The notes under the pieces: generated by a model
What the model was told of the DNA's origin: nothing
Seen by the model: the letters and a program-made list of their open reading frames with translations, nothing else
Database searches by the model: none
Part shown: positions 1 to 8,292 of the stretch, piece after piece
Numbering within the stretch: the stretch's first letter is position 1
Layout: each line of letters opens with the position of its first letter
DNA from: Alphaproteobacteria bacterium
GTDB taxonomy: Bacteria > Pseudomonadota > Alphaproteobacteria > UBA8366
Length of the DNA: 9,090 bases
Direction of reading: 5' to 3'
NCBI GenBank assembly: GCA_029861675.1
Contig: JAOTYV010000194.1
Coordinates: 1 to 9,090, forward strand
Translations under genes and position numbers: made by a program

Positions 1-977
1 TGTTTGTCGCGCAGCGCCGTCAGCTTGGCGGCTATTTCGTCGAGCGCCTGATCCCAGGAAATCGGCACCAGCGCGCCGTCGCCGCGTTTGCCGGTCCGCT
101 TCAGCGGCTGCGTCAGCCGGCGCTCGTTGTTGTAAAGCTGCAGCGTCATCTGCGACTTTGGACAGATGCGGCCCTGAAAATTGGGGTCTTCGTCGTTGCC
201 GGCGATGCCGACCACCTTGCCGTCCTTGAGGTGGAATTTCAGCGGGCAGCCGTTGAAGCAGATGTTGCAGCCGCCGGGCACCACGCGGTCGGCGGTGCGG
301 TCCGCGCGCGCGGCACGGTAGGGGCCTTCCATGGTCGCCGATTTGAGCGGATCGCGGCTCGAGGCATCGGCGACCAGGGCGAGCAGGCTGGGCACGGCGG
401 GTTCCACTGCGACAGGTTCCGCGGCCGCATTCGTGGTGTCGTCGGACTGCAGATAGACCGTGGCGGGTCCCATCAGATAATGGTCGTGATCGAGCGGCTC
501 TTGCGCCGCTTCGGCTGCCGTCGCCAGCAGGTCGTCGCGCTCGCCGAAGTGGATGGCGTGGCCGGGACAGACGCTGGCGCAGGCGGGGATGCCGCCCTTG
601 GCGCGGCGGTCGGCGCAGAGGTCGCACTTCACCGCATGTTGGTCGACCGGGTCGAATCCCATTGCGCCGTAAGGGCAGGCGATCACGCATTCGCCGCAAC
701 CGGTGCAGCGGCTCTCGTCGATCGAGACCACGCCGGTTGCAGGATCCTTCAGGATCGCCGGCGGATTGACCGGGCACGCGCGCAGGCAGGCGGGCCGCTC
801 GCATTGCTGGCAGGTCACGGTGAGAAAATCGGTCTTCGGCTTGCCCGGCGTCTCCAGCCACAGCACCTTGTTGCGGTATTCGTGCGGACCCAGCCCGTGT
901 TCCTGCTTGCAGGCGGCCTCGCAGCTCTTGCAGCCGATGCAGCGTTCCAGATCGATCATCAGGGCGAGGCGGCTCAT
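1..977 (-). CDS. Fused four-cluster ferredoxin / molybdopterin oxidoreductase (5' part; runs off the left edge)
   Basis: The frame is open from an ATG at 977 to the window edge, about 325 codons without a stop, so the C-terminus is missing. Residues 1-140 form a DmsB/NrfC-like ferredoxin domain with four cysteine sets for four [4Fe-4S] clusters: C13/C16/C19/C23, C56/C59/C64/C68, C91/C94/C97/C101 and C118/C121/C133/C137. An Ala/Pro-rich linker (about 150-230) leads to the start of a DMSO-reductase-family catalytic subunit, whose own cluster motif is CX2CX3CX27C (C237, C240, C244, C272) followed by K274. The electron-transfer and catalytic subunits, normally separate proteins, are thus one polypeptide. 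No twin-arginine signal is visible, which suggests a cytoplasmic enzyme. The start follows the cytochrome b-like gene by 19 bases, with a CAGGGAAG ribosome-binding stretch. With that neighbour it probably forms a quinone-linked membrane molybdoenzyme. SoeAB-like sulfite dehydrogenase is one candidate; polysulfide, thiosulfate or other DMSO-reductase-family activities are equally compatible. Confidence 0.9.
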   Translation of the reverse strand, partial: MSRLALMIDLERCIGCKSCEAACKQEHGLGPHEYRNKVLWLETPGKPKTDFLTVTCQQCERPACLRACPVNPPAILKDPATGVVSIDESRCTGCGECVIACPYGAMGFDPVDQHAVKCDLCADRRAKGGIPACASVCPGHAIHFGERDDLLATAAEAAQEPLDHDHYLMGPATVYLQSDDTTNAAAEPVAVEPAVPSLLALVADASSRDPLKSATMEGPYRAARADRTADRVVPGGCNICFNGCPLKFHLKDGKVVGIAGNDEDPNFQGRICPKSQMTLQLYNNERRLTQPLKRTGKRGDGALVPISWDQALDEIAAKLTALRDK

Positions 978-996
978 GGCAATGGACTTCCCTGTT

Positions 997-1821
997 TCAT
1001 CGATCCGGCCCGCCCCAATCGGCGAGGTGCCACCAGTGGATCGGGCCGCCATCGGCCACATAGCCTGCAAAGAAGGTGACGGTGACGACATGGATCACCA
1101 GCCCGAGCAGGAAGAGCGCGGCAACGGCCATGTGCAGCGCCCGCCAATAGGCTTGCGCCGCGGGTACGGCGCGGCGCTGGCCGATCAAGCCCAACTCCGC
1201 CCGCGCTAGGCGATGGTACCGCCAACTCCGGATCGGGTGCGTCCGCCAATGCGCCAAGGTGGGCCGGAACGTCGCTTCGGATTTATCCGCGTCCAGTGTG
1301 GCCAGGAGCGTGCGTTTGGCGTCGATGATCCGCGCGAGGTGTGCCTTATCCGGCGGATCGGGTGACAGGAAGGCGCGGTATTTGCCGCCGAAGGTACCGG
1401 CGATCCGGTGCGCCAGATAAATTCGCGCCCAAGCACCCTGGACGACCAGGAAGAGCCCGCCGGCGAGCAGCAGGGCCGGCGGTCGCCGCAGATATAATCC
1501 CGAATGAACGACCAGCAGGCCGACGCCAATACAGCCCGCGACCGCGTGCGCGATGAACCAGGCGGGCGGGTTCTCGCTATGCCCCGACCGTTTGGCGAGG
1601 AAATAGGCGAGGGGCGTCATTGCGAGTGCGGCCCCGACCACGCCAGTAAGATAGAGCTCCGGGCTGCCGGGCGACGACCACGCGGCGGGCAGGAAGCGCC
1701 GCAGCGCGAAAAACAGAATGACCGCCGCGGCCGTGCTCAGCACAACCGTCAGCAGGGCGCGCGTACCGAATGTCGGGCGCGGCGCGCTTGTGCCGGTTGT
1801 TGCGCTCACCGGGGCGTTCAC
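997..1821 (-). CDS. Di-heme cytochrome b-like integral membrane subunit
   Basis: A 274-residue membrane protein with about five hydrophobic helices (roughly residues 22-40, 57-76, 87-110, 115-135 and 228-254) and a long hydrophilic segment (about 140-225) before the last helix. Two helices each carry two histidines separated by 13 residues, H92/H106 and H230/H244. This is the HX13H spacing of bis-histidine b-heme ligation seen in bc1-type cytochrome b and in ferric-reductase-like membrane domains. It ends in a Trp/His-rich tail. The frame is open further upstream, but that extension lies inside the preceding dioxygenase gene and is Arg/Pro/His-rich, so I chose the GTG at 1819-1821. This GTG overlaps the dioxygenase TGA (1818-1820) as GTGA, a typical translational-coupling junction; no good Shine-Dalgarno is visible. 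A second GTG at 1807-1809 is a possible alternative start. The likely role is to pass electrons between the downstream Mo/Fe-S fusion protein and quinone. The fold is not the eight-helix NrfD/DmsC type, and the exact family is not recognised. Confidence 0.8.
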   Translation of the reverse strand: MNAPVSATTGTSAPRPTFGTRALLTVVLSTAAAVILFFALRRFLPAAWSSPGSPELYLTGVVGAALAMTPLAYFLAKRSGHSENPPAWFIAHAVAGCIGVGLLVVHSGLYLRRPPALLLAGGLFLVVQGAWARIYLAHRIAGTFGGKYRAFLSPDPPDKAHLARIIDAKRTLLATLDADKSEATFRPTLAHWRTHPIRSWRYHRLARAELGLIGQRRAVPAAQAYWRALHMAVAALFLLGLVIHVVTVTFFAGYVADGGPIHWWHLADWGGPDR

Positions 1822-2672
1822 CGGGGACGGTCGCCGGCCAGGGTGGTGCGGTGCAGGTGACGCGGTTCCGCCATGTCGTAGTCGTCGAGCGCGAGATGAA
1901 TGGTGCTGCGGTTGTCCCACATCACCAGGTCGCCGACCGCCCAGCGATGGCGGTAAATGAAGCGCGGCTGGGTCGCATGGCCGAACAGGAAATCCAGCAG
2001 GGCGCGGCTCTCCGCCTCGTGCATGCCGGTGATGCGGCGCGTGAAGCCCGGGTTGACGTAGAGCGCCTTGCGCCCGGTCTCGGGATGGGTGCGCACCACC
2101 GGATGCTCGACCGGCGGCACCGCCTCCTTCTCCGCGTCGCTCAGCGGCGGCCGCTCCGCGTGCCGCGAGAAGAAGGTCTCATAGGCGTTGGTGTAATCGT
2201 GTACCGCGACGAGGCCGTCCAGCATGCCCTTCATGATATCCGACAACGCGTCGTAGGCGGCGGCCATTCCGGCGAACAGGGTATCGCCGCCGTAACCCGG
2301 AATTTCCTTCGCGTGCAGCAGCGAGGCCATCGTCGGATGCGCCGTATAGGAGCAGTCGGAATGCCAATACTGGCCCGCGCGAATCGCGCCGGTGGGCTTG
2401 CCGCCTTCCGTCTTGTTGGAAATCTGGAAGACGTCCGGGTTCTCGGGCAGGGCGAATTGACCGAGCAGATGCTGCTCCAGCGGCCCGACGCGCTCGCTAA
2501 AGCGCACCAGCGCGTCGGGGTCGAGCGACTGGTTGCGGAAGACCAGCACGGAATACTCGTGGAAGGCGCCGAGGATGTCGGAGAAATCCTCGTTGCCGAG
2601 ATCCCGGGAGAGGTCGACCCCCGCTATCTCGGCGCCGGTCGCGCCGCCGAGCCGGTGTATTGCGACTGCCAT
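1818..2672 (-). CDS. TauD/TfdA-family Fe(II)/2-oxoglutarate-dependent dioxygenase (copy 1)
   Basis: A 284-residue protein of normal family length (E. coli TauD is about 283). Family enzymes hydroxylate a substrate using O2 and 2-oxoglutarate; with sulfonates this releases sulfite. The iron facial triad is H104, D106 (WHSD) and H259 (WDNRSTIH). R271 is placed like the 2-oxoglutarate-binding Arg of TauD and R275 like its sulfonate-binding Arg. The conserved HPVVRTHPETGRK block is at 190-202. H68 aligns with the taurine-contacting H70 of TauD. The ATG at 2670-2672 is preceded by GGAG about 11 bases upstream. It is the most divergent of the three copies in this window. It lies 83 bases after the TPR gene and is coupled by a GTGA overlap to the cytochrome b-like gene, which ties it to the redox module. 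The family call is secure; the substrate cannot be read from sequence. Confidence 0.93.
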   Translation of the reverse strand: MAVAIHRLGGATGAEIAGVDLSRDLGNEDFSDILGAFHEYSVLVFRNQSLDPDALVRFSERVGPLEQHLLGQFALPENPDVFQISNKTEGGKPTGAIRAGQYWHSDCSYTAHPTMASLLHAKEIPGYGGDTLFAGMAAAYDALSDIMKGMLDGLVAVHDYTNAYETFFSRHAERPPLSDAEKEAVPPVEHPVVRTHPETGRKALYVNPGFTRRITGMHEAESRALLDFLFGHATQPRFIYRHRWAVGDLVMWDNRSTIHLALDDYDMAEPRHLHRTTLAGDRPR

Positions 2673-2755
2673 CTTTTTTGTTGCTCCATATTCGGACGTT
2701 GCCTGGCAAATTTCACGGGCGTCGGGTTATTCGGTGGGGCAGGGCGGCCGCCGCG

Positions 2756-4144
2756 TCATGCCGCCAGCAGCGTCTTTGCGCGATCCAGCGCGTCGTCCGC
2801 GCCGGCGGCGTCGCCGACGCCTTCTAGGGCGCGGGCATAGGTCTTCCAGACATGCGGGTTGCCGGGCTTGAGCGCGGACCGCTCTGCCAGCAGCGCGCGC
2901 GCCAAGGCGTGCTGTCCGCCCTTCAGCGCGGATTCGATCAACATTTCGGCGTAGATATCGCGCTGCGCGTGGCTGCCGCCGATACGCTGAAGCCCGTAGC
3001 GGATCGGCATCATCAAATCGACCGCGCGTTCGTAGTCCCGGTCGCAATAGGCGAGCACCGATTTGGCGAGCGGAATGCTGACCTCGCGCATCACCGGGAC
3101 GCTGGTCGCGTTCCAGGTCGCGACGTATTCCTGCATGGAGTCGATCATCCGCTCGGCGGCGTCGCGCCGGCCGCCGCAGGCGACCGCCAGCAGGAAATGC
3201 GTGTCATGGAACGGCAGCAGGTGCTCGTTGATCCGCGGCGCGCATTTTTCCGCCAGTTCGGTCCAGCGGTCGCCGACATCGACATCGCGGAATTCGAGCC
3301 GCATCAGCAGGGCGACGGCGTTGGCGATGTCGCGGATCTGGTCGTTCTTGTCGGCCCTGATCCGCGTGTCGTAGAGCCGGAGTACTTCGTCAAACTCGCC
3401 GCGGTCGAGATGGTAGAGCGAACAGTGCCACCACAGGTGATAGCGGTAGTTGTTGCAATCGGCCCAATGGGGCTCCGTGCCCTCGATCCAGTCGATGCCT
3501 TCCCGGGGGCGGTCCTGCATTTCCATCACGTGGGCGACCGCGTGCACGGCGTAGGGGTCGTTTGGCTTGATCTCGATCGCCCGCTTCCCCGCGGCTTCCG
3601 CCGCCGGATAGTCGCCCGACTCCTCGAGGCCGAACGCGCGCATACCGAGCACGTTGCTGTAATGCGGCACGCCCTCATCCCAGGCCGGCATCACCCGGGC
3701 GATGCAATCGCGGATATTAGCGACGTCGCCGAGATACAAGTGCCCGAACTGGGCCAGCTTCAGGGCAAATACGTCGCGCGGATGGTCGATCAGGATCGAC
3801 TCCCAACGCGCGAGCGCGCCACTGAAATCGCGGCGGCACCACGCGCCGAGCGCGGCGACATGGGTGCGTTCGCGCTCCGTCGCGCCTTCGGCCCGCGCTT
3901 CCGCCTCGGCCAAGACCGCCTCGGCCCGGTCCAGCACGTCGGCATTCCCCATCAATTGCAGGAAATAGCCCTGGATGCAGTGGCCCATCACCAGGCCGGG
4001 GTCGATGTCGAGCGCATCTTGCAGGGCCGCACCCGTCTGCGGGCTGTATTCGAAAAATTGATCGACCATCCGGTCGAACGCGTCGACCGCTTCCTGGCTC
4101 GTCGCGGTCATGGAGAGACCGTGGACATCCTTATAGGTCGCCAT
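2756..4144 (-). CDS. TTC38-family tetratricopeptide repeat protein
   Basis: A 462-residue soluble, helix-rich protein with no signal peptide or membrane segment. Its length and landmarks match the TTC38 family (related to the StaR-like TPR group), which occurs in bacteria and animals. Shared stretches include VMGH near 53, RERTHVAAL near 91, an ESILIDHP stretch near 119, AVHAVAHVMEMQ near 201, a WWH-SLYHLDRGEFDE helix pair near 240, an AQRDIYAEMLIESAL stretch near 397 and ERSALKPGNP near 427. TPR proteins usually mediate protein-protein contacts; no enzymatic role is established for TTC38 that I can name. The start is firm: an in-frame TGA lies just upstream and GGGAG sits 9 bases before the ATG. 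It begins 20 bases after the stop of the copy-2 dioxygenase and precedes copy 1, so it is embedded in the dioxygenase operon. It may assist or scaffold that pathway (inference). Confidence 0.92.
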   Translation of the reverse strand: MATYKDVHGLSMTATSQEAVDAFDRMVDQFFEYSPQTGAALQDALDIDPGLVMGHCIQGYFLQLMGNADVLDRAEAVLAEAEARAEGATERERTHVAALGAWCRRDFSGALARWESILIDHPRDVFALKLAQFGHLYLGDVANIRDCIARVMPAWDEGVPHYSNVLGMRAFGLEESGDYPAAEAAGKRAIEIKPNDPYAVHAVAHVMEMQDRPREGIDWIEGTEPHWADCNNYRYHLWWHCSLYHLDRGEFDEVLRLYDTRIRADKNDQIRDIANAVALLMRLEFRDVDVGDRWTELAEKCAPRINEHLLPFHDTHFLLAVACGGRRDAAERMIDSMQEYVATWNATSVPVMREVSIPLAKSVLAYCDRDYERAVDLMMPIRYGLQRIGGSHAQRDIYAEMLIESALKGGQHALARALLAERSALKPGNPHVWKTYARALEGVGDAAGADDALDRAKTLLAA

Positions 4145-4164
4145 ATCGTATCACTCCCGCCAGT

Positions 4165-5037
4165 CTAAACCGGCCGGTCGCCGACGACCGTGACCCGGTG
4201 CATTTCGCGCCGCTGGCCGTGATAGTCGTTCAACGCATAGTGCTGAACGCAGCGGTTGTCCCAGAAGGCGATGGAACCCTTGCGCCAGCGGAACCGGCAG
4301 GTGAACTCCGGCCGCACCGCATGCGCATATAGAAACTTCAGCAGCGGCTGGCTCTCTTCTTCCGTCCAGCCCTTGAAGCGGCGGGTGAAGACATGATTGA
4401 CGAAGAGCGATTTGCGGCCGGTTTCCGGATGGGTGCGCACGACCGGGTGCTCGACTTCCGCGTCGGCCTCGTCGTCGTCGCCGACCCGCACGGTCATCGA
4501 TTTCTGCTTTGTGGTGTCAAAGCGTTTGTCCGTGCGGCCGTTCCGGCCGTAGGCGTTGGCGGCGTTATGCATCGCAGTCAGGCCGTCGAGCGTCGCTTTG
4601 AGCCCGTCGGACAGCGCCTCATAGGCGAGATACTGATTGGAAAACTGCGTGTCGCCGCCATGCGTCGGCACGTCGAGCGCGTAGAGGATGGAGCCGAGAG
4701 CAGGCTTCTCATAGAAGGTCACGTCGGAATGCCAAGTGCCGCCGAAATTGACGTCGGTCGTGTCGCCGGCTTCCTTGATCACCGGCAAGACCTCGGGAAA
4801 TTCGTCGAGGCCCGCGGCATAGGGATGGATGTCCAGGTCGCCGAAGCGCCGGCCGAAGGACAAATGCTGTTCGGGCGTGATTTTCTGGTCGCGGAAGAAG
4901 ATCACCTGATGGTCGAGAAAGGCCTGGTGGACAGCGTCGAATTCCGTGTTGCTGAGCGGGCCGCCGAGGTCGATACCGTGGATTTCAGCGCCCAGCGCGC
5001 CGGAAATTTTCTGTACCTCGATGCCGTTCGCCGCCAT
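4165..5037 (-). CDS. TauD/TfdA-family Fe(II)/2-oxoglutarate-dependent dioxygenase (copy 2)
   Basis: A 290-residue dioxygenase. The iron ligands are H103, D105 (TWHSD) and H266 (WDNRCVQH). R277 and R281 lie 11 and 15 residues after H266, exactly the spacing of the 2-oxoglutarate and sulfonate arginines in E. coli TauD. The HPVVRTHPETGRK block starts at 197. H71 and Y73 resemble the taurine-pocket H70/Y73 of TauD, but the segment before the WHSD motif (NFGGT) differs from the TauD segment carrying N95, so taurine is not a safe substrate call. An acidic loop (GDDDEADAE, about 187-195) is unusual. The frame extends 13 codons upstream, but the ATG at 5035-5037 has a perfect AGGAGG seven bases before it and aligns with the copy-3 N-terminus. 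It is clearly closer to copy 3 than to copy 1, consistent with tandem duplication. The stop is 20 bases before the TPR gene. Confidence 0.93.
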   Translation of the reverse strand: MAANGIEVQKISGALGAEIHGIDLGGPLSNTEFDAVHQAFLDHQVIFFRDQKITPEQHLSFGRRFGDLDIHPYAAGLDEFPEVLPVIKEAGDTTDVNFGGTWHSDVTFYEKPALGSILYALDVPTHGGDTQFSNQYLAYEALSDGLKATLDGLTAMHNAANAYGRNGRTDKRFDTTKQKSMTVRVGDDDEADAEVEHPVVRTHPETGRKSLFVNHVFTRRFKGWTEEESQPLLKFLYAHAVRPEFTCRFRWRKGSIAFWDNRCVQHYALNDYHGQRREMHRVTVVGDRPV

Positions 5038-5044
5038 GCCGTTT

Positions 5045-5050
5045 CCTCCT
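5045..5050 (-). promoter_or_regulatory. Strong Shine-Dalgarno that fixes the start of dioxygenase copy 2
   Basis: On the minus strand this reads AGGAGG, seven bases before the ATG at 5037. It decides against the upstream ATG at 5076, which would add 13 poorly conserved residues. Confidence 0.85.
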
Positions 5051-5127
5051 CTTGCAATGCCCGCGGACAATATCATCGGTGCGGCGCAGGTGCCACCGGC
5101 CGTGCCTCAAATGACGTCATATTCCTT

Positions 5128-5979
5128 TCAAAACGGCCGGTCGCCGTCGATCGTGATCCGGTGCATGCGGCGGCGCTGACCCGCGTAGTCGTTGACCGCC
5201 TGATGCAGGGTGCAGCGATTGTCCCACACCACCAGCGTGCCCGGCGCCCAACGGACCCGGCAGGTGAATTCGGGCCGGATGGCATGGCCGCAGAGGAAGC
5301 GCAGCAGGGGCGCGCTTTCTTCCTCGGTCCAGCCGGCGAAGCGCACGGTGTGCGAGCGGTTGAGGTAGAGCGACTGGCGGCCGGTCTCCGGATGCGTGAG
5401 CACCACCGGATGTTCGGCTTCGAGTTCTTCAGCTTCTTCCCGAAAGCCGTCTTTCATGCCGTTGATGGCGATCATCTTTCGCGCCCGGCCGCCGCGGTCC
5501 TTCTGGGCGGAACTGTTGACCGCGCGCAGCGTCGTCAACAAGTCCTTCATGCCATCCGACAGGGAGCCGAAGGCGAGATACAGATTGGCGAATTGCGTAT
5601 CGCCGCCGGCAGCCGGCACCTCATGGGCATAGAGCACGGTGCCGAGCGCGGGCTTCTCCATGTAGGTCGTGTCGGAATGCCAGTAGCCGCCGAAATTGAT
5701 TTGATCCGTCTCGGTCTTGAGGATCTCGGTGACCTCGGGCGCTTCGGGCAATCCGGCGATGAAAGGATAGACTCCGGGCGTGCCGAAACGCCGCGCGAAT
5801 GCCAGTTGCTGCTGCGGTGTGATGATCTGGTCGCGAAAGACGATCACCTGATGGTCGAGGAACGCAAGGTGAATTTCGGCGAAGACCGCATCGTCCAGCG
5901 GCTGCGACAGATCGGCGCCCGTGATTTCCGCGCCGAGCGCGCCGGAGAGGGGTCGGATGTCGAGGGTTGGATCAGGCAT
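5128..5979 (-). CDS. TauD/TfdA-family Fe(II)/2-oxoglutarate-dependent dioxygenase (copy 3, first of the dioxygenase operon)
   Basis: A 283-residue dioxygenase with the iron triad H101, D103 (YWHSD) and H259 (WDNRCTLH). R270 and R274 have the TauD spacing for the co-substrate and acid-group arginines, and the HPVVLTHPETGRQ block starts at 190. The N-terminal SGALGAEITG stretch and the NFGG-x-WHSD segment closely match copy 2, so the two look like a tandem duplicate pair. The position equivalent to the taurine-contacting His of TauD is Tyr here (VYP near 70-72), and the loop at about 153-188 is rich in Arg, Lys and Glu, so its substrate or orientation probably differs from copy 2. The ATG at 5977-5979 is the most upstream start possible because an in-frame TAG lies two codons before it. 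No strong Shine-Dalgarno is visible. The gene follows a 126-base gap, so a promoter may lie just upstream. Confidence 0.93.
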   Translation of the reverse strand: MPDPTLDIRPLSGALGAEITGADLSQPLDDAVFAEIHLAFLDHQVIVFRDQIITPQQQLAFARRFGTPGVYPFIAGLPEAPEVTEILKTETDQINFGGYWHSDTTYMEKPALGTVLYAHEVPAAGGDTQFANLYLAFGSLSDGMKDLLTTLRAVNSSAQKDRGGRARKMIAINGMKDGFREEAEELEAEHPVVLTHPETGRQSLYLNRSHTVRFAGWTEEESAPLLRFLCGHAIRPEFTCRVRWAPGTLVVWDNRCTLHQAVNDYAGQRRRMHRITIDGDRPF

Positions 5980-6105: not shown

Positions 6106-6759
6106 CTACGATTTGCCGATGCCGCCGTGCTGGTGCGACCATGCCGGCGCGTCGGCGGCAAAGCTCTCGATTTCCTGGAATTCGCGCGGGCCCAGATAGC
6201 CCTCGGTTCGCGCCTTGCGGATGATGTCGTCGAGCCGCGCCAGCGAGAGCATCCCATGGTCGGCCGGGAAGACATTGAAATCGATCAGGACGAACGTCTC
6301 CGGAACGTCGGCGTCGGCGCGTTGAAGCGTGTCCCGGAAGGTCGACTCGCTTGCGCCGTCCGTTGCGAGGTCATCGACCAGCAATGCCCGCTCGCCCGGC
6401 TCGAAACTGCCTTCGAACTGGGCCAGCCGTCCAAATCCCTTGCTTTGCTTGCAGACCAGGACGAGTGGCTTGTTCAAGCGGTCGGCAATCAGGGCCGCGA
6501 ATGGTACGCCCGTCAGTTCGCATCCGGCTACCACATCCAGGGAGTCTATTTCGGTGCCTGCCGCGATGCATTCGACGGCCATTGCCACGAGCAGGTCGCG
6601 GGCTTGCGGCGAGGAAATGAGCTTTTTGCAGTCGATGAAAACCGGACTGGCCCATCCCGATGAAAAATAGAACGGGTCGCCATCGGTTCGTGTATAGAGC
6701 GAGCGGCTTTCGATGATGATCCGGGCGGTCTCGGTCGCCCATTTTTCTGGCTCCGTCAT
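6106..6759 (-). CDS. Orotate phosphoribosyltransferase-like protein (divergent PyrE paralogue)
   Basis: A 217-residue type I phosphoribosyltransferase. Canonical PyrE joins orotate to PRPP to make OMP. The N-terminal hood stretch (SSGWASPVFID, 33-43) and the C-terminal AWSHQHGG (206-213) resemble alphaproteobacterial PyrE. The PRPP loop is at 128-137 (VDDLATDGAS) and the flexible catalytic loop at 103-110 (CKQSKGFG). Key deviations: Cys103 and Phe109 replace the Arg and His of the usual RK-x-x-K-x-H-G loop (R99 and H105 in Salmonella numbering), and Asp134 replaces the Thr or Ala usual in the PRPP loop. K104 and K107 are kept. It may therefore be altered in substrate, or not be the main OPRTase. 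Its ATG directly follows the TAA of the amidohydrolase gene (TAAATG), with CGGAG nine bases before the start, so translation is probably coupled. A role in pyrimidine or ureide metabolism with that neighbour is inference. Confidence 0.82.
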   Translation of the reverse strand: MTEPEKWATETARIIIESRSLYTRTDGDPFYFSSGWASPVFIDCKKLISSPQARDLLVAMAVECIAAGTEIDSLDVVAGCELTGVPFAALIADRLNKPLVLVCKQSKGFGRLAQFEGSFEPGERALLVDDLATDGASESTFRDTLQRADADVPETFVLIDFNVFPADHGMLSLARLDDIIRKARTEGYLGPREFQEIESFAADAPAWSHQHGGIGKS

Positions 6760-8085
6760 TTACCGGTACTCCGTTTTTCCGCTGGCGGAAGCGAGCATGG
6801 CGCCGCCCAACACTTCCGCGGCTAGAAAGAAATCCGATAGCTCCATCGCTTCGTTCGGGTTGTGGCTACCCTTGTCGTTTCTGACGAAGACCATGCCCGA
6901 CGGGACGCCCGCATTCGCGAAAACCGAAGAATCATGCCCGGCTCCTGACGCCAAAACCTCGTAGTCGATCCGTTGGTGTTCACAAATCATTTCCAGCATC
7001 GCGGCCAATTCGGAATTCATCGTCGCCGGATGGGTGAGGACCGGTGTGCCCAATTCGAACCGGACGCCGCGGTTGGCGGTGACCTGTTCACATTCCGACT
7101 GAATGAGCGCCTCGAAGGATTTGAGGGTTTTGAGGTCCTGGCTCCGATATTCCAAGGCGAAAGAGACCTCGCCGGGTACCCGGGAGACCGCGTGTTCCTT
7201 GGCGTTTGTTTCAACGATGCCCGAGGTCACGACCAAATCTTCGCCCCATTCAAGCAGCACCCTCCAGTGCTCGTCGATCCGCACCATCAAATCGGCCATG
7301 GCGAGAACGGCGTCTTTGCGCATCCACCGCGGCACCGCGCCGGAATGCGCCGCTTCGCCGTAACAAATGACCTTGCGGTGCCGGTGATTGCCGCGAATGC
7401 CGGTTACGATCCCGATGGGCTTGTCACGAGCAATCAGGACAGGGCCTTGCTCGATATGCAGTTCCAGCCAACACATCATTTCCGACGGATCACGTAACGG
7501 TTTGCCGGATCTTAGTCGCGCGACGTCCGCCCCCGCGGACCGCATACAGTCTTCCAGTGTTCTCGCGCCGTCACGGTGGACGGTTTGGAAGTCATCATCC
7601 GAAAGTTCGCCGAACAGCGCGCGCGAGCCGAAGTAGCACGGACCGCCAAACCATGCGCTCTCCTCGCCACGAAGAGCATAAACTTCCATCGTGCGACTTA
7701 ACGGTTTTTCTTGCTTGGCGGCGATCAGCACGGCCAGGCCGGCGATAACGCCCGCGGCGCCGTCGAAATTTCCGCCCTCCGGAACGCTGTCGAGATGGGA
7801 GCCGGTCGCGACGCAAGGCAATTCCGGATCTTGTCCCGGCAGCCGGATGATGAGATTGCGGGCGGCATCCCATTCGGTGGAAAGTCCCTCCGTGCGGGCA
7901 TAGGATTCGACGAGTTCGCACGCGGCGGTCTCGCTGGCGCCATAGGTTTCACGGGACACGCCAACGCCATCGAAGGACATTTCGCGAAGCTTTGTCAGCG
8001 CGTCGGCCGAGATCTGACGCACCGTATCTGTCAGGGAAAAGTCAGGGAGGACATCGCGCCCCGCGGGGGATAGCGTATGAACCAT
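6760..8085 (-). CDS. M20-family Zn-dependent amidohydrolase, hydantoinase/carbamoylase type
   Basis: A 441-residue cytoplasmic metallohydrolase of the N-carbamoyl-L-amino acid hydrolase / beta-ureidopropionase / allantoate amidohydrolase group, which removes the carbamoyl or ureido group from amino-acid derivatives. The dinuclear metal ligands are visible: H97 and D99 in GSHLDS, D108 in NFDGAAG, E141/E142 in RGEES (general base and metal ligand), H210 in ELHIEQGP and H408 in GSHNPNE. GAGHDSSVFA at 381-390 is typical of the family. The dimerisation-domain signature near 243-259 (GEAAHSGAVPRWMRKDA) is recognisable. The frame opens 32 codons further upstream, but the ATG at 8083-8085 has GGAGG six bases before it, and the extension is Cys/Trp/Arg-rich intergenic sequence. 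It is first in the leftward series and abuts the PyrE-like gene. The exact substrate (N-carbamoyl amino acid, ureidopropionate, allantoate or similar) cannot be decided. Confidence 0.9.
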   Translation of the reverse strand: MVHTLSPAGRDVLPDFSLTDTVRQISADALTKLREMSFDGVGVSRETYGASETAACELVESYARTEGLSTEWDAARNLIIRLPGQDPELPCVATGSHLDSVPEGGNFDGAAGVIAGLAVLIAAKQEKPLSRTMEVYALRGEESAWFGGPCYFGSRALFGELSDDDFQTVHRDGARTLEDCMRSAGADVARLRSGKPLRDPSEMMCWLELHIEQGPVLIARDKPIGIVTGIRGNHRHRKVICYGEAAHSGAVPRWMRKDAVLAMADLMVRIDEHWRVLLEWGEDLVVTSGIVETNAKEHAVSRVPGEVSFALEYRSQDLKTLKSFEALIQSECEQVTANRGVRFELGTPVLTHPATMNSELAAMLEMICEHQRIDYEVLASGAGHDSSVFANAGVPSGMVFVRNDKGSHNPNEAMELSDFFLAAEVLGGAMLASASGKTEYR

Positions 8086-8292
8086 AGACCGCCTCCAAAT
8101 AAAAAAGGCGGCACCACAAATATTGGCACCAGCTCTATTTTGGAAGTGACTATATTTAACCCAAATCGCTCGACAGCACAAATGCAGGGTGCTCGCTGGG
8201 TTGTACCGGGACGCTAGGTTGCCATCGGCCGTATCGGAAAATCGAGACCGGTGACATCAAATGAAAACAGGTATTTAAGAAGGCAGGCTGCC
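8086..8292. promoter_or_regulatory. Divergent intergenic region with candidate promoter and repeats
   Basis: About 207 bases separate the leftward amidohydrolase from the rightward MBL hydrolase, including an AT-rich patch unlike the rest of the window. For the leftward gene, the minus strand reads TATAGT at 8149-8154, a 5/6 match to a -10 box, but no good -35 sits at the right distance. Two GGTGCC direct repeats (minus strand; + strand 8110-8115 and 8125-8130) lie 15 bases apart in the leftward leader. For the rightward gene, TTGCCA at 8219-8224 is a 5/6 -35 match without a matching -10. Both divergent promoters are expected here, but their exact sites are uncertain. Confidence 0.4.
8089..8111 (-). 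promoter_or_regulatory. Possible hairpin overlapping the amidohydrolase ribosome-binding site
   Basis: In mRNA sense, CCGCC and GGCGG flank a 13-base loop that is mainly U/A. The right arm overlaps the GGAGG ribosome-binding site (8092-8096), which sits six bases before the ATG. Only five base pairs are perfect, so an RBS-masking role is speculative. Confidence 0.25.

Follow-up and report, generated by a model that had tools for sequence, protein, structure and literature searches.

Why should dioxygenases of the TauD/TfdA family be encoded beside a membrane-bound molybdoenzyme, and do the two act in one pathway? The question is raised by a run of six genes on the minus strand of contig JAOTYV010000194.1 (assembly GCA_029861675.1), a 9,090-nucleotide stretch of DNA from an alphaproteobacterium of the UBA8366 lineage that was analysed over its whole length and is called the window here. 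A preliminary description had taken the run for one apparent operon, in which sulfonates would be cleaved and the released sulfite oxidised by a SoeABC-type enzyme. We propose, with a probability of about 0.5, that three of the genes (TauD3, CytB and FeMo) form a catabolic or respiratory module in which the product of TauD3 would be oxidised by FeMo and the electrons passed to quinone. In the order in which they are read, the six genes are:

TauD1, 5979-5128, minus strand: TauD/TfdA 2-oxoglutarate (2OG) dioxygenase, PF02668.
TauD2, 5037-4165, minus strand: TauD/TfdA dioxygenase, PF02668; alternative in-frame ATG at 5076.
TPR-repeat protein, 4144-2756, minus strand: generic TPR Pfam models.
TauD3, 2672-1818, minus strand: TauD/TfdA dioxygenase, PF02668, of a subfamily that adjoins CytB-FeMo in 7 other genomes.
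CytB, 1821-997, minus strand: membrane protein, putatively of the b561-like di-heme type, with four invariant His.
FeMo, 977-3, minus strand: first 325 amino acids (aa), a four-cluster ferredoxin fused to MopB; the C-terminal part lies beyond the window edge.

Gene order, coordinates and spacings agree with those described before: 126 bases separate a PyrE-like gene from TauD1, followed along the run by 90, 20 and 83 bases, a GTGA common to the end of TauD3 and the start of CytB, and 19 bases. With the start of TauD2 at 5076, the gap between TauD1 and TauD2 would be 51 instead of 90 bases. In a Pfam scan all three dioxygenases matched PF02668 (222-244 bits) and the domains of FeMo were Fer4_11, Molybdop_Fe4S4 and Molybdopterin. 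CytB gave no Pfam match at E 0.001. The TTC38-type label given to the TPR protein could not be confirmed, as only generic TPR models matched.

Scanning genome contigs with the FeMo fragment gave at least 80 loci. CytB is the next match upstream of FeMo, in the same orientation and within about 0.5 kb of it, in 64 of the best 80, while no CytB match at E 1e-8 was found in the remaining 16 (in the AT-richer loci L030, L036, L042, L051 and L057 the gene finder did not call CytB, which was judged from tblastn). CytB and FeMo thus belong together as a genuine unit. A TauD gene lies directly upstream of CytB in 12 of the 60 loci that, among these 64, have upstream sequence. Searching 25 genomes with TauD3 yielded 7 matches at 57-60% (others at most 52% among the matches listed), five of which are the copy abutting CytB; with two further genomes of the same order, TauD3-CytB-FeMo recurs in 7 genomes (loci L196, L197, L012, L017, L007, L008 and L026). 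This part of the apparent operon is therefore conserved, whereas for the TPR gene no conserved arrangement with TauD was found: its homologues had no TauD neighbour among 30 loci except in one divergent case.

In the TauD tree, the window TauD3 clusters with 7 CytB-linked and 2 unlinked copies (support 98/89). A second TauD type, from another TauD clade, abuts CytB in L041, L042, L051, L052, L053, L057, L061, G254 and G733. The window TauD1 sits in that second clade (100/98) and its best match is the CytB-adjacent copy in 6 of 7 such genomes; both TauD clades found next to CytB-FeMo elsewhere are thus represented in the window. Since 11 of the 25 genomes also contain relatives of TauD1 (60-66% matches) that are not next to CytB, TauD1 is not counted as a specific partner. 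The links of TauD2 and the TPR protein are weak. A TPR homologue stands directly downstream of FeMo in the SAR116-type L035 (13001-14287) and in L036, both of which fall within the clade of TauD3-linked CytB-FeMo pairs; it is possible, from these two genomes only, that the TPR protein is an accessory component.

On a tree of CytB plus FeMo (79 rows passing length and score filters, L061 being among those lost), TauD linkage needs 4 changes, one of which may be an artefact, as L198 was scored as being without TauD and its contig ends just upstream of CytB. The window pair groups with L001-L006, apart from the other TauD3-linked loci (SH-aLRT 98 at that fork). Either the TauD3 linkage is old and survived in two lineages while those between them lost it, or it has two origins; both histories favour a functional tie. 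Genes, overlaps, cofactor ligands, linkage, clades and neighbours are all read from the sequence, and we regard the TauD3-CytB-FeMo module as real. Since TauD3 is found next to this enzyme in other bacteria as well, a common pathway is probable.

What TauD3 might act on is suggested by its neighbours elsewhere. In L196 and L197, which belong to nearly single-contig genomes, the conserved island starts with an SsuA-family binding protein, a TauB-like ATPase, two permeases, a second TauD and a HAD hydrolase, and continues with a BisC-type molybdoenzyme, a ComA-family gene, a choline-sulfatase-like sulfatase, a GntR-like gene (named by eye), LysR, TauD3, CytB and FeMo. ComA is phosphosulfolactate synthase. 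The five TauD3-linked loci found earlier share the whole run that begins with the ComA-like gene and ends with FeMo, and have a TauD and the HAD gene beyond it; the BisC-type gene was called in all of these except L026, which is also the only one whose permease end was read, the other four starting inside it. Island families were scanned on the L008, L026 and L197 copies and carried to the others by identity. TauD3 and a second TauD also border an importer of this SsuABC/TauABC-like type (binding protein, ATPase, two permeases) in G018 and G054, where CytB-FeMo is found on another contig, and the binding protein of L149 scans as SsuA-family. This gene company makes it plausible that TauD3 serves in organosulfur metabolism.

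The active sites of the dioxygenases were compared using the numbering of Escherichia coli TauD. All three window proteins carry the superfamily signature (His-X-Asp...His, the 2OG Arg and PF02668), with His99, Asp101, His255, Arg266 and Arg270 present in TauD1, TauD2 and TauD3. According to PMC9304159, taurine is hydrogen-bonded by His70 and Arg270, and its amine is positioned by Asp94, Asn95 and Ser158. His70 is kept in TauD2 and TauD3 and is Tyr in TauD1; in all three proteins Asn95 is Gly and Tyr73 is replaced, and the Ser158 position is Ala or Lys. With the amine contacts changed and His70 and Arg270 kept, TauD3 could thus bind an acidic head group, but could not contact a taurine-like amine as E. 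coli TauD does. It shares with E. coli TauD the fold family, the Fe ligands, the 2OG Arg, His70 and Arg270, but differs at the Tyr73, Asn95 and Ser158 positions and stays under the taurine dioxygenase equivalog cutoff of 313 bits, which none of the window TauDs reached (243.9, 302.4 and 246.9 bits, TauD2 with 302.4 being close). The best solved-structure match of TauD3 is a taurine dioxygenase; those of TauD1 and TauD2 are phenoxypropionate dioxygenases, (R)-phenoxypropionate dioxygenase in the case of TauD2. The sulfonate role proposed earlier is partly supported, by the organosulfur neighbourhood of the TauD3 orthologues. TauD/TfdA expansion is extreme in G013-G016 (the genomes of L002-L005), with 113-146 first-look candidates and at least 72 scored in each.

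The description of CytB as a di-heme membrane cytochrome is consistent with its His residues: His92, His106, His230 and His244 are invariant in 64 aligned homologues (59 of 120 listed plus 5 locus proteins) and form two pairs (92/106 and 230/244), each 14 residues apart. One loop is strongly basic (16 Lys/Arg vs 7 Asp/Glu), which fits a predicted cytoplasmic docking face. The full FeMo has about 980 aa, with an N-terminal ferredoxin and then the MopB domain in one reading frame; 16 ferredoxin Cys, 4 further Cys and the Mo-ligand Cys are invariant in the alignment (38 of 48 full-length proteins). No twin-arginine or other export leader was found in the window FeMo or in 19 listed FeMo starts, and for this reason we place FeMo in the cytoplasm. 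A MopB catalytic part, a four-cluster ferredoxin part and a membrane anchor are the components of complex iron-sulfur molybdoenzymes, here with an anchor unlike the NrfD kind. This anatomy supports the predicted cytoplasmic, quinone-linked enzyme of the preliminary description.

The type of molybdoenzyme is a different matter. FeMo forms its own clade in the MopB tree (support 100/100; three near-duplicate rows, two FeMo and one SoeA, were dropped), in which the SoeA rows are loci assigned to SoeA by architecture, not the Allochromatium sequence. Membership of FeMo in the SoeA clade was rejected, an enforced SoeA+FeMo clade giving P = 0.0008 in the approximately unbiased (AU) test, and deeper joins including SoeA gave AU P-values of 0.06 and 0.04. 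A grouping of FeMo with its near relatives and PhsA, which contains a single PhsA row, differs from the best tree but was not rejected (P = 0.166). The nearest folds to FeMo are formate dehydrogenase and NapA, which it joins at a deeper node (93/91). Placement of the Mo subunit in a tree, proposed earlier as a check on the sulfur role, thus gave a clade of its own nearer to formate dehydrogenase and NapA, which goes only half of the way to a firm non-sulfur grouping. In its best local alignments FeMo scores higher against PhsA (229 bits) than against SoeA (at most 140 bits); FeMo from L012 scored 310.1 bits against a PhsA/PsrA NCBIfam equivalog cutoff of 694, and no curated equivalog cutoff was reached among the best 25 of 58 NCBIfam matches. 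A Cys/Sec-His motif and Arg333 define the formate dehydrogenase family. In 19 of 19 FeMo rows Arg333 is absent, and so is the His next to the Mo ligand, the Cys being followed by Ser, Ala or Asp.

Comparison with known systems gives the same picture. SoeABC of Allochromatium and Aquifex, as described in PMC10100899 and PMC8076601, resembles FeMo-CytB in having a cytoplasm-facing Mo-bisPGD subunit with a Cys ligand, a four-cluster ferredoxin and a quinone-interacting membrane subunit, and FeMo shares the Cys ligand by alignment and, presumably, the cytoplasmic location. However, SoeA and SoeB are two distinct subunits and the NrfD-like SoeC carries no redox cofactors, whereas FeMo is fused, lies in another clade and has a four-His cytochrome anchor. 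Moreover, the same genomes carry SoeABC-type operons elsewhere: a DmsC-like gene is present in 19 of 23 genomes (including 11 of 11 TauD-linked genomes of that set), and the full A-B-C order was read in 7 of 9 fetched regions. Formate dehydrogenase (FdnGHI, FdhA) and NapA are closest in fold and as best general hidden Markov model, and FdnGHI also has a b-type cytochrome anchor; FeMo differs from formate dehydrogenase by lacking the His after the Mo ligand, Arg333 and an exported leader, and by its N-terminally fused Fe-S subunit. As for PsrABC/PhsABC, the A, B and C functions are all present in FeMo-CytB, and the FeMo Cys aligns to Cys 173 of Thermus polysulfide reductase, which we take to be the Mo ligand; PhsA, however, has a twin-arginine-type start (judged by eye) that FeMo lacks, and FeMo scores far under the PhsA cutoff. 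Finally, the split-subunit MopB proteins of Nitrospira and Hydrogenophilales (L063-L065) are the sister clade of FeMo, with 37-38% identity over the whole MopB part and 47-49% in the ferredoxin, but their subunits are separate, L064 and L065 have twin-arginine-type starts, and no CytB match was found at E 1e-8. The SoeABC-type assignment is therefore not upheld: by clade, fusion and anchor, FeMo-CytB is a separate, uncharacterised family of complex iron-sulfur molybdoenzymes. To a known superfamily it adds a family whose Fe-S part is fused and whose anchor is a cytochrome. No description of it was recognised in the literature searched, which lacked most subscription journals.

By record titles, the FeMo family spans Alpha- and Betaproteobacteria and Nitrospinota, with a patchy distribution. 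The pair is rare: CytB-FeMo was found in 5 of 385 genomes of one class (4 of these 5 already among the loci above) and in 9 of 297, 6 of 14 and 13 of 43 genomes of three orders, each sample including genomes previously known to carry it. Three metagenome-assembled genomes (L025, L028 and L032) titled Bordetella parapertussis look like mislabelled bins, as their CytB-FeMo groups with environmental Burkholderiales. In the cultured Pseudohalocynthiibacter aestuariivivens RR4-35 the pair lies on plasmid NZ_CP049042.1 (L165), flanked on one side by a putative sulfate exporter, betB, Rieske, amidohydrolase and LysR genes and on the other by a second molybdoenzyme. Streptomyces plasmid NZ_CP109189.1 encodes a FeMo-related MopB protein of 34% identity (L164:5806-8331) in an arsenic-resistance-type cluster with ArsR, ACR3 and ArsO-type genes.

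How could the module work? We infer the substrate, the order of the steps and the direction of the electrons as follows. TauD3 would hydroxylate a compound whose head group is a sulfonate or another acid; from a sulfonate, this would produce sulfite and an aldehyde inside the cytoplasm. FeMo, as a putative cytoplasmic Cys-liganded molybdo- or tungsto-bis-pyranopterin oxidoreductase, would oxidise a small product of this step, and the electrons would pass through five [4Fe-4S] clusters and the di-heme-type CytB to quinone. We give about even odds that the TauD3 substrate would be an imported organosulfonate. It is possible that FeMo-CytB runs in reverse, as a quinol-driven reduction. A more tentative proposal is that several lineages devote FeMo-CytB, as a new family of respiratory molybdoenzymes, to a product that TauD3-type enzymes release from organosulfonates.

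Several observations weigh against this pathway. No TauD is found at CytB in 48 of the 60 loci, so FeMo must have a TauD-independent use, and the closest relatives of the window pair (L001-L006) show no TauD there, the L001 contig starting at CytB. Between 1 and at least 72 TauD genes were scored per genome (22 genomes), with up to 146 first-look candidates; as TauD genes are this common, a cluster of three is unremarkable by itself, and a TauD is more apt than most genes to be a neighbour by chance. The window contains no importer, ComA or sulfatase gene, and a carboxylate could equally be held by His70 and Arg270.

Among other explanations, FeMo-CytB might act as a quinone-linked dehydrogenase on the carbon product or on some other small molecule, with chemistry like that of aldehydes or formate, while sulfite goes to SoeABC or assimilation. 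Such a molecule is a possible, if uncertain, substrate of FeMo, and the explanation as a whole is doubtful: formate dehydrogenase and NapA are the nearest folds, but both formate dehydrogenase residues, Arg333 and the His following the Mo ligand, are absent. Sulfite is one candidate for the FeMo substrate but appears unlikely, and equally unlikely is it that the TauD enzymes release sulfite to a sulfite:quinone oxidoreductase that works like SoeABC and comes from another family. The organosulfur neighbourhood of the TauD3 orthologues, the Cys-liganded, presumably cytoplasmic Mo enzyme with its quinone-side anchor and a sulfate-exporter-family gene at most 7 kb from CytB-FeMo on the Pseudohalocynthiibacter plasmid would all suit this idea, but the rejected SoeA+FeMo clade, the better alignment to PhsA than to SoeA and the SoeABC-type genes elsewhere in the same genomes argue against it.

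Alternatively, CytB-FeMo could be an independent accessory respiratory enzyme that has TauD neighbours by chance, out of dozens of copies. The abundance of first-look TauD candidates would allow for this, and 11 of 25 genomes have equal or closer relatives of TauD1 at sites other than CytB. The genes upstream of CytB also vary: by Pfam, 46 complete same-strand neighbours comprise acyl-CoA synthetase/GNAT (10), TauD (9), GreA (8) and a scattered rest, a set that leaves out 3 TauD loci whose CytB the gene finder did not call. We nevertheless hold chance to be an unlikely cause, given that one TauD3 subfamily adjoins CytB in two separate CytB-FeMo clades, which is rarely expected from random insertion, and that spacings are short or overlapping. 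Least probable is an aryloxy or other carboxylate substrate (RdpA-like), from which an acid or phenol derivative would be released for the Mo enzyme to act on, as the phenoxypropionate-type matches of TauD1 and TauD2 and the missing taurine amine contacts in all three TauDs are set against the taurine dioxygenase match of TauD3 and the sulfonate-type importers beside its orthologues.

Two further genes lie upstream of the run on the same strand and could be on its transcript:

PyrE-like, 6106..6759, minus strand: orotate-phosphoribosyltransferase-like, 126 bases upstream of TauD1.
M20 amidase, 6760..8181, minus strand: hydantoinase/carbamoylase family, abutting the PyrE-like gene.

Their direct contact (6106-8181) suggests a step on a pyrimidine or N-carbamoyl compound just upstream.

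TauD-type enzymes are usually treated as sulfur-scavenging. If the proposed TauD3-CytB-FeMo pathway is true, a dedicated quinone-linked molybdoenzyme beside TauD would mean that energy is also drawn from the oxygenase reaction, with the electrons delivered to the quinone pool. The plasmid-borne relative in the cultured P. aestuariivivens RR4-35 makes this question testable.

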